Source: Chloroflexota bacterium | GTDB lineage: Bacteria > Chloroflexota > Dehalococcoidia > E44-bin15 | Length of the DNA stretch: 64,000 nucleotides | NCBI GenBank assembly: GCA_030604825.1 | Contig: JAUVVB010000004.1 | Span: 1-64,000 of the forward strand | Direction: 5' to 3' | Part shown: in pieces, positions 1,905-29,669 of the stretch | Layout: every line of letters begins with the position of its first letter | Numbering within the stretch: the first letter of the stretch is position 1 | Notes under the pieces: model-generated | The model's input: only the letters and a program-made list of their open reading frames with translations | Told to the model about the DNA's origin: nothing | The model's database searches: none | Translations under genes and position numbers: made by a program

Positions 1905-1933
1905 TTGACAAAAGACCCCCATCGTGGTATTAT
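1905..1933 (+). promoter_or_regulatory. Strong sigma-70-type promoter of the orphan RNA
   Basis: TTGACA (1905-1910), a 17-base spacer, then TATTAT (1928-1933). The predicted transcription start, about 1940-1942, coincides with the first base of the closing stem of the structured RNA that follows. No coding sequence lies downstream on this strand before a terminator-like T-run. Confidence 0.8.
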
Positions 1934-1940
1934 TTTTGTC

Positions 1941-2052
1941 GGCCCTGAGTAGTCAGGCTAAAGAACCGGGACCGAACCGAGGTAGCACGCGAAAGCGGTG
2001 TGAAGCGGAGGTGAGGGTCCCGGGAACGGCAAGGCTACTCAGGGCGTTTTTT
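1941..2052 (+). ncRNA. Unassigned structured non-coding RNA (~110 nt)
   Basis: This interval has the layout of a free-standing RNA gene: a near-consensus promoter, a highly structured body and a T6 run. The 5' end (1942-1952) pairs perfectly over 11 bp with the 3' end (2035-2045), which is followed by TTTTTT at 2047-2052. Inside, CCGGGACC (1966-1973) pairs with GGTCCCGG (2016-2023), and a GAAA tetraloop capped by C-G pairs sits at 1988-1997. No open reading frame fits. I compared it by eye with the small SRP RNA, 6S RNA, T-box leaders, glycine, TPP, SAM, c-di-GMP and c-di-AMP riboswitches and found no match to their conserved cores. It lies between degV and the HPRT fusion gene, both on the opposite strand, so it is not their 5' leader. 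Confidence 0.7.
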
Positions 2053-2101: not shown

Positions 2102-3556
2102 CTATTTTGCCTCGGTTGGAGATGGGGTGACAATCCCAATAAAGGGTAGATTCCTGAACTCCCCGTTATAGTCCAAACCATATCCCACCACGAACTCGTC
2201 GGGGACCTCAAAGCCAATATACTTAAGGGGCACATCCACCAGTCGGCGCACTCTCTTGTCCAGCAGGGTACACACCTCGAGACTGGCCGGGTTACGTGCC
2301 GCGAGGTAATGCAGCACATAGTTCAGCGTCATGCCGGTGTCTACGATGTCCTCGACCATGATCACGTCAAGCCCAGCTATGCTTCTATCCAGGTCCTTGA
2401 TGATTCTTACACTCTCCGTCTCCTGGTCACCGTAATAGGAAATGGCCATAAAATCCACGCTTACCGGCAGTGAGATATTGCGCATCAGGTCCGGCATGAA
2501 ACACACTACACCCTTGAGGATGCCTATCAGTAGAGGACTCCGTCCTGCATAGTCACCAGAGATCGCCTTTCCCAACTGACGCACCCTTCTCTGTATTTGA
2601 GGGGCGCTGAGTAAGATCCTTTCCACATTTACCTCGGCCCGGCCCAAAGGCCCATATCCGTACTTTGCCAGCAGGCGATGATAATCCCTCTTGGTGAGGA
2701 GCTTGATATTGACCTCGGGGTAGAGCTCCTTCAGGCGACGCAGCTTGCGGGTCTTTTCCCTGATGAGCTCCTGCTTCATGGTAGTGAGTTCTACGTAAAG
2801 GTCCAGTTCAGGCAGGTAAAAATCTGGAGTGAACATCTCCTTTACCTTGTCCCCATCCCACTCCAGGGGGAAGGAGCGGGGCTCATACATCCACTGTATC
2901 TTGTAGAAGTCAAGGAGCCTGGCAAACTCCTCCTCAGAAGGATGGGAAAAGGAGATAGGTCTAATCAGATCCTGTGCCAGTCTCGGTACATCGGGTTGGG
3001 AGAACATTGCATCCCTTGCTGCCTCTAGCTCGCGGAGCTGGGCATTTTCTACAGCAACGGCGGCGAGACCAGCCACCGCTGTGAGGAACGCAATGTCGTC
3101 GGTGGAGAAATGGCGGTGCTCACGGGTGTATACCCTTAGCGCGCCGATAATGCTGCCCCTTTGCCTCAGCGGCACGCTGACCATGGAGGCAATCCCCTGG
3201 CGTTGTGCCATTTCCCTGTATTGGACTCGAGGGTCGGTGGCGGCATCGAGCACGGTTACCACTTTGCCCTCGAGGGTATCGCCCAAGCTTTTATCCGCAT
3301 CGAGGAAGCCTTTTCGTAGATACCAATCGCTGAGCCCATGGGAGACGGCGTGCAACAAGCGTCGGCTTGCGGCATCGAAAAGCAGCACTGAGCAGCCTGA
3401 GGATTTCATTGCTGAGGCAGTCTTCTTGGCCATAGTGGCTAGGGTGTCTCTCAACGTGTCGCCGGAGACAGCTTCAGTGGCCAGTTCCTGAAGCACTTGA
3501 TAGTAAGCGGCAACATGCTGTCCCATGGTCGTGCCCTCGCCAAACGAGTTCAACAT
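2102..3556 (-). CDS. GAF - nuclease-like - hypoxanthine phosphoribosyltransferase fusion protein
   Basis: This 484-residue protein has three parts. Residues about 15-180 look like a GAF sensor domain. Residues about 200-300 resemble a VSR/PD-(D/E)xK-type fold, with E210, T-P-D-F at 243-246 and V-E-L at 255-257; the canonical Lys after the last Glu is missing, although K261 is near. Residues about 310-484 are a hypoxanthine-guanine phosphoribosyltransferase with the PRPP loop V-E-D-I-V-D-T-G (401-408) and the purine-binding G-L-D-Y-N-G-E region (460-466). Stand-alone HPRTs have about 180 residues, so the first 300 are an addition. Purine salvage is a confident role for the C-terminus; ligand-controlled or nucleic-acid-linked regulation by the other domains is inference. 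AGGAGG lies nine bases before the start. Confidence 0.85.
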   Translation of the reverse strand: MLNSFGEGTTMGQHVAAYYQVLQELATEAVSGDTLRDTLATMAKKTASAMKSSGCSVLLFDAASRRLLHAVSHGLSDWYLRKGFLDADKSLGDTLEGKVVTVLDAATDPRVQYREMAQRQGIASMVSVPLRQRGSIIGALRVYTREHRHFSTDDIAFLTAVAGLAAVAVENAQLRELEAARDAMFSQPDVPRLAQDLIRPISFSHPSEEEFARLLDFYKIQWMYEPRSFPLEWDGDKVKEMFTPDFYLPELDLYVELTTMKQELIREKTRKLRRLKELYPEVNIKLLTKRDYHRLLAKYGYGPLGRAEVNVERILLSAPQIQRRVRQLGKAISGDYAGRSPLLIGILKGVVCFMPDLMRNISLPVSVDFMAISYYGDQETESVRIIKDLDRSIAGLDVIMVEDIVDTGMTLNYVLHYLAARNPASLEVCTLLDKRVRRLVDVPLKYIGFEVPDEFVVGYGLDYNGEFRNLPFIGIVTPSPTEAK

Positions 3557-28968: not shown

Positions 28969-29669
28969 GCCCTCTCCTTTTTCCTTCTTGCCATCAAGAA
29001 GCCAAACCCAATGCCCCCAATAACTAAGGCCTCGAAAATCGTTGCCCCGGCAATGAAAAGGGTGCAATCGCTGAAGAAGCCCGCGGGAAAGAGCCTGAGC
29101 AAATAGTCTGTAGGGCCGAGCATCCAGTAATCGCTGCCAAAGAAAAGATGATGAAATTTGAGGAAAAGCCAGTCGAAATTGACCATGGCCCCTATCCCTA
29201 AAAGGATGAGCAGCGCAATGGTGAGGGCACTTCCACCTGAAGCCAGCCTGGCCAGATGGGGCCAAAAGCGCCTCCGCTGCCAGACGAAGCCCACGGCGAG
29301 AAATGCAGCCAGGAAGCCAAAGGTGCCCTCCTGAAGGTGATAACAGAGCCTAACCAGGCCCTTGACCTCCTTGAGATGGAGCACCTCCCTTTCAGTGAAT
29401 AGGCCATCCTCCTCTGTCGAGACCTCTATTTGAAGGAATTCCTCCCCCGAGTTGAAGTAATGAATAAGCTCCTGCGCCACCCTCAAGAGTTCCTCATTCC
29501 CGATGCCGGTTTCCTCGCCGACCTGGTATTTATCGAATCCATATTGATAAAGGCGCACCTCGTTAACCGCCCAGCGAAGATTGCTGGTGAGCAGAAAAAC
29601 GGGGAGGCAGAGGACGAAAAGCCCCATAGCGAGGACACCAAGGATGCTGAGCAGCCTCTTTTTAGCCAT
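28965..29669 (-). CDS. DUF1461 (TIGR01906) integral membrane protein
   Basis: 234 residues: an N-terminal membrane helix (about 7-27), a soluble domain with H-L-x-E-V-K (about 97-103), then three further helices and F-H-x-L-F-F-G-S-D-Y-W with L-F-P-A-G-F-F, which are the TIGR01906/DUF1461 landmarks. Function unknown. The start ATG lies only 11 bases after the -10 of an upstream promoter, giving a very short leader. Confidence 0.85.
   Translation of the reverse strand: MAKKRLLSILGVLAMGLFVLCLPVFLLTSNLRWAVNEVRLYQYGFDKYQVGEETGIGNEELLRVAQELIHYFNSGEEFLQIEVSTEEDGLFTEREVLHLKEVKGLVRLCYHLQEGTFGFLAAFLAVGFVWQRRRFWPHLARLASGGSALTIALLILLGIGAMVNFDWLFLKFHHLFFGSDYWMLGPTDYLLRLFPAGFFSDCTLFIAGATIFEALVIGGIGFGFLMARRKKERA

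Follow-up and report, generated by a model that had tools for sequence, protein, structure and literature searches.

A structured RNA family of the Dehalococcoidia and its probable partner, an HPRT fusion protein with a PD-(D/E)XK-like domain

Background

Between two genes of the minus strand, a Dehalococcoidia genome carries on its plus strand a short, strongly folded unit with the appearance of a free-standing RNA gene. Does this unit belong to a known RNA family and, if not, with what might such an RNA work? We address the question in a 64,000-nt stretch of DNA, here called the window, which comprises positions 1-64,000 (forward strand) of contig JAUVVB010000004.1 in assembly GCA_030604825.1 (Chloroflexota; Dehalococcoidia; E44-bin15) and in which a sequence-only reading had drawn attention to the locus.

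It is rare for a structured noncoding RNA to be tied to one protein throughout a bacterial class, and RNA-protein pairs of this sort have mostly proved to be real ribonucleoproteins. The locus described here suggests that a purine-salvage enzyme fused to a nuclease fold has an RNA-related role.

Results and Discussion

The transcription unit and the fold of its RNA

As predicted from its signals, the span 1905-2052 (+ strand) is a complete transcription unit consisting of a promoter, a 112-nt rod-like RNA and a T6 tail. The -35 element TTGACA (1905-1910, with TTGAC at the same place in 62 of 66 homologues) is followed, after a spacer of 17, by the -10 element TATTAT (1928-1933), assigned from the sequence and by homologue comparison and accompanied by an extended -10 TG. 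This promoter, already picked out by the sequence-only reading, matches the consensus at 11 of 12 positions and predicts a transcription start at about 1940, the terminal stem starting at 1942. The structured noncoding RNA, about 112 nt long with its U tail, occupies 1941-2052 (+) and scores 63 bits with the covariance model R3 described below. The T6 tail (2047-2052), likewise recognised earlier, belongs to a predicted intrinsic terminator of which the terminal stem is the hairpin, and at least six T in eight positions are found there in 58/66 homologues. Along the + strand from 1389 to 2678, a program-made list of open reading frames holds none of at least 60 aa, and the flanking genes, DegV-like (904-1845) and HPRT fusion (2102-3556), are both on the minus strand, in agreement on both counts with the first description. 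A small ORF was considered and rejected, a frame of about 40 codons starting with ATG being open in one Dehalogenimonas copy and, by eye, broken in others.

The MFE fold of the window RNA has an energy of -62.7 kcal/mol, which none of 200 dinucleotide shuffles reached (z -6.9); the reverse strand of the locus folds more weakly (z -4.35). Its shape is an unbranched rod in which short helices are split by purine-rich internal loops. The 11-bp perfect terminal stem previously noted at the start of the RNA extends to 13 bp when a U-G and a C-G pair are counted, its 5' arm being GCCCUGAGUAGUC (1942-1954, +) and its 3' arm GGCUACUCAGGGC (2033-2045, +), and both fold and alignment place a 3-bp helix past the first internal loop (1957-1959 with 2028-2030, +). 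Next comes the inner 8-bp stem, which was also read correctly at the outset and in which CCGGGACC (1966-1973, +) pairs with GGUCCCGG (2016-2023, +). The apical module, AGGUA-GCAC-loop-GUGU-GAAGC (1980-2006, +), contains an (A/G)GUA...GAA pattern that 51 of 72 homologues possess, where shuffles give 16, and that 29 possess twice; from their sequence these strands resemble the sarcin-ricin/loop E motif and may adopt its three-dimensional form. A GAAA tetraloop had been proposed as well: the letters CGC-GAAA-GCG do occur, but the MFE fold instead pairs CACGC with GUGUG around a 7-nt loop.

Homologues and covariation

Plain BLAST within the window's family found the RNA itself only, and a first homologue was therefore sought by synteny with an orthologue of the HPRT-fusion gene. 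The family holds one close orthologue (genome G003, 79% identity), and just downstream of it, on the opposite strand, lies a homologous unit with the same TTGACA-17-TATTAT promoter and the same ends, a terminal stem in which a G-C pair has become A-U by compensatory change, and an inner stem that reads GGG-AA-CC / GG-AA-CCC. A covariance model from two sequences (R2) yielded over 20 class members, and its successor from 23 sequences (R3) has matches in 103 of the 393 genomes of the class and, beyond it, in other Chloroflexota, notably family f116. Where a Dehalococcoidia family had been suspected, covariance-model searching, suggested at the time as a check, bears out that the RNA is widespread in the class and shows that it is not confined to it, the f116 genomes lying outside. 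Members come in forms of 100-135 nt and of 156-195 nt.

The 23-row alignment was built without structure, the structure afterwards being chosen on that alignment, and 20 of its 24 pairs are changed on both sides; the figure is 22 of 24 in an alignment of 72 homologues, which was fitted to the model and hence leans towards it. In the latter, doubly changed cells number 217 against 80 in shuffles, and sliding the partners abolishes the signal. Helix 1, the terminal stem, is 97.5% paired, with 10 of 12 counted pairs doubly changed; compensatory changes in the stems, which the sequence-only reading had named as evidence that would favour an RNA, are thus plentiful. Over 70 homologues the fold z averages -4.6, and a sigma-70-type promoter matching at least 9 of 12 positions stands just upstream in 63/66 homologues, the rate in random windows drawn from these loci being 2.2%, so the structure and promoter originally observed lie far beyond chance. 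The promoter evidence is independent of R3 because the model starts downstream of the promoter. With the T-rich tail, again in 58/66, the RNA has its own promoter and terminator signals across members. An AGG beside the 3' arm of the terminal stem is nearly invariant; the interior of the RNA differs greatly from member to member, an uncommon trait in a site of specific binding. From comparison of the sequences, a structured RNA family is computationally well supported.

Comparison with known RNA families

Rfam 15 returned two tRNAs as its sole matches over the whole window and, at the RNA locus with E<=10, chance matches on the other strand only and none to the RNA. The divergent members likewise gave chance-level matches and no relevant one, and no family reached its gathering cut-off with the window RNA or with these members. 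The proposal of an unrecognised RNA family has therefore come through the Rfam search that was to challenge it, with strong covariation in two alignments besides, and the earlier failure to match SRP or 6S RNA is upheld. Small SRP RNA (RF00169) is similar in length and hairpin form but is ruled out, the genome's real SRP RNA being at another locus (G000:C17:42674-42773, 71 bits). A mobile repeat is also ruled out, the RNA being single-copy in the window genome.

6S RNA (RF00013), another stand-alone rod-like RNA, gives no score in the window and is ruled out as such. Could the window RNA nevertheless bind RNA polymerase in the manner of 6S? It has the rod shape and a strong promoter, and 30 of the 31 relatives searched, the window genome being one of the 30, gave no 6S match. 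It is, however, shorter than 6S, matches no 6S model and is restricted to genomes with one protein, which it tracks, and it is absent from relatives whose genomes are nearly complete (G001, for example, at 99%), where a substitute for 6S should be general. We consider this reading very improbable. As an observation in its own right, 6S RNA may be missing from the class or unrecognisable in it.

An anti-Shine-Dalgarno sponge was also considered: among the 72 members GGAGG is not enriched (41, against 34 in shuffles) and GGAGGU moderately so (20, against 6). No earlier description of the RNA was found in the open-access literature. An rdhA motif reported from Dehalococcoides is described as lying upstream of reductive dehalogenase genes, a different context (PMC11109978), and Chloroflexi-1 RNA (RF01698), which is a candidate RNA of the same phylum, has been reported from Chloroflexus aggregans only (PMC2864571) and gives no match to the window RNA in Rfam 15.

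Linkage to the HPRT-fusion gene

When genomes were searched by RNA alone, an RNA copy lay within 1.5 kb of a gene for a GAF / PD-(D/E)XK-like / HPRT protein in 79 of the 101 genomes with listed matches, typically convergent with that gene and at its 3' end. In the reverse direction, the neighbour's central domain, used as a probe of GTDB genomes, gave 549 encoding stretches; the best 80 of these, which were examined, are all from Chloroflexota. Among them 76 loci extend far enough past the gene, and at 68 of these R3 places the RNA downstream and convergent. These loci were selected by the protein, and the search by RNA alone is therefore the unbiased test. The RNA mostly ends between -17 and +184 nt from the protein's stop codon, with one exception 2.5 kb off (L085).

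Of the 393 class genomes, 101 combine RNA and protein, 2 have just the RNA, 51 have just the protein and 239 lack both, which gives an odds ratio of 237 (p 4e-52, a value inflated by shared ancestry). Counted by genus, the corresponding figures are 65, 1, 28 and 132, with p-values subject to the same inflation. Within the window's own family RNA and protein go together in two of 14 genomes and are both missing from the other 12, so that they have been lost or gained jointly. On the promoter side, 43 neighbouring proteins fall into 28 clusters, and the conserved gene order is therefore specific to the HPRT-fusion side. The RNA had been called an orphan, a description that fails in the face of this synteny (79/101) and co-occurrence (101/103). 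We regard it as highly probable that RNA and protein are partners.

Part of the 51 protein-only genomes are simply misses. In family f15, whose complete genomes of 1.4-2.1 Mb are probably Dehalococcoides and Dehalogenimonas, R3 gave a weak score or none in the large scan, and yet all seven genomes inspected have an RNA unit of 180-191 nt adjoining the HPRT-fusion gene, two of them with two tandem copies. Divergent RNA copies that the scan missed are present in the protein-positive genomes G027, G108 and G211. By eye, no RNA was found at eight other protein loci (L101, L103, L121, L124, L128, L139, L141 and L145). The RNA thus reaches what are probably the culturable organohalide respirers of the class.

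Copies away from the gene

Not every copy adjoins the protein gene: 71 of the 153 listed RNA matches do not, and there are up to five copies per genome. These unlinked copies retain promoter and terminator and are nearly all in genomes that encode the HPRT-fusion protein, which argues for a trans-acting RNA and not for a terminator. The RNA can, on this evidence, act in trans or have a role of its own.

Two alternatives may be weighed here. The first takes the locus for nothing more than a MITE-like inverted repeat, or for an element that separates two convergent genes as a bidirectional terminator or insulator. The terminal inverted repeats and the closeness of the RNA's end to the stop codon at most loci might speak for it; given an own promoter in 63/66, covarying internal helices, the signals kept by unlinked copies, the single copy in the window genome and the lack, in the window sequence, of a T-run after the stem on the protein-gene strand, we give it scarcely any credence. 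The second is an independent housekeeping or regulatory small RNA, acting for example by base pairing, that stands beside the HPRT fusion through conserved gene order only. The many copies away from the gene, each with its own promoter, suit such an RNA, but it is almost never found without the protein (101/103), even where unlinked, and gene order on its other side is not conserved; we judge this alternative unlikely.

The partner protein

The HPRT-fusion gene (2102-3556, - strand) encodes 484 aa in which domain searches and models delimit a GAF domain (35-169), a PD-(D/E)XK-like domain (about 199-300) and an HPRT domain (314-476). GAF is recognised by a Pfam match and is optional, L061 and others having the central domain and HPRT only. 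The HPRT part matches the equivalog TIGR01203 best (194.7 bits against a cut-off of 150), while PyrR models give at most 23 bits on this PRTase part, which is not of the PyrR type. The window genome has a second HPRT gene (G000:C7:72575).

For the central domain (2642-2974, -) no Pfam match was found, and comparison with T7 endonuclease I (PF05367; E 3.5e-4) reveals a conserved Glu, PD and Glu common to both. A fold search with the whole protein returned HPRT structures only, for which reason the domain was modelled separately (pLDDT 89.9). Searched alone, it finds various PD-(D/E)XK structures, weakly but consistently (best E 1.9e-3, none below 1e-3). Model and sequence together thus give it a predicted PD-(D/E)XK fold. 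It is like T7 endonuclease I (PDB 3cae) in sequence and in these conserved residues and differs from it in being cellular, vertically conserved, fused to HPRT and possessed of E-L-T in place of ExK. An invariant Thr occupies the position of the catalytic Lys, and catalysis is therefore doubtful; judged from these residues, the likelier remaining role of the domain is a putative binding of nucleic acid.

A nuclease-like protein beside an RNA gene recalls type III toxin-antitoxin systems such as ToxIN, the more so as some copies have two repeated modules. It may thus be supposed that the RNA keeps the protein inactive, by type III logic, or guides it in defence, a supposition consistent with the PD-(D/E)XK-like domain, with weak PADLOC matches to candidate defence families and with the Fic-, HicB-, MazF- and DUF262-like genes seen by eye near unlinked copies. 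Here, however, the RNA is a closed rod with its own terminator, convergent with and downstream of the protein gene, and not a tandem-repeat RNA upstream in one operon with a toxin; the protein belongs to no endoRNase toxin family, lacks the catalytic lysine and has a full-length HPRT domain, and the pattern of occurrence is broad and largely vertical. In our view a module of toxin-antitoxin-like or defence type is quite improbable.

A proposed ribonucleoprotein

We favour the explanation, probable on balance when taken as a whole, that the new RNA is the functional partner of the HPRT fusion in a nucleotide-linked ribonucleoprotein. The partnership is computationally well supported; binding and mechanism we infer. 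The separately transcribed rod would be the partner of the convergently encoded protein, whose nuclease-fold part, HPRT part or both would bind it via the terminal stem, the flanking AGG and the purine-rich internal loops. That the protein binds the RNA directly seems to us, from these features, rather more probable than otherwise. Such binding might in turn be coupled to the purine/PRPP or GAF-ligand state, the RNA either tuning the protein or serving as a regulatory output. By analogy a nucleotide-sensing regulatory role is conceivable, if somewhat doubtful.

PyrR is a uracil PRTase turned RNA-binding regulator, which acts on cis leader hairpins, the binding loops of pyr mRNA, and the use of RNA envisaged here would be loosely similar. 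In both cases a PRTase-fold protein would bind structured RNA, here purine-rich, and sense nucleotides or PRPP; in the present case, by contrast, the RNA is a separate transcript and the PRTase is of HPRT type, with a nuclease-fold and usually a GAF domain. On comparative evidence the RNA forms a new class and its protein partner is of a new kind, any biochemical role of the RNA being putative. More tentatively, we propose a new class of ribonucleoprotein in which HPRT, an altered T7-endonuclease-I-like domain and GAF would bind the RNA and couple the purine/PRPP state to RNA-based regulation, unlinked copies acting in trans within the same network. Existing cultures and a single purified protein would suffice for a direct test of the claim.

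Minor observations

In the window itself, a sub-threshold R3 match at 29581-29662 (14.4 bits, E 0.24) is probably due to chance. The tandem copies beside the HPRT fusion in probable Dehalogenimonas lie at L176:2484-2664 and 2974-3155 and at L182:2803-2982 and 3265-3445; one genome (G201) has a further, unlinked copy at L175:2439-2620. In family f44, unlinked copies of about 146 nt (L183, L184, L187, L191 and L192) are those with the Fic-, DUF262-, HicB- and MazF-like neighbours mentioned above, and G245 has two identical copies in an inverted duplication. At L194, outside the class in f116, the HPRT-fusion gene is again followed downstream by the RNA, a small gene of 92 codons separating the two, and at L069 (1816-1930) an unlinked RNA copy and a Moco riboswitch occur together, the riboswitch about 150 nt further downstream.
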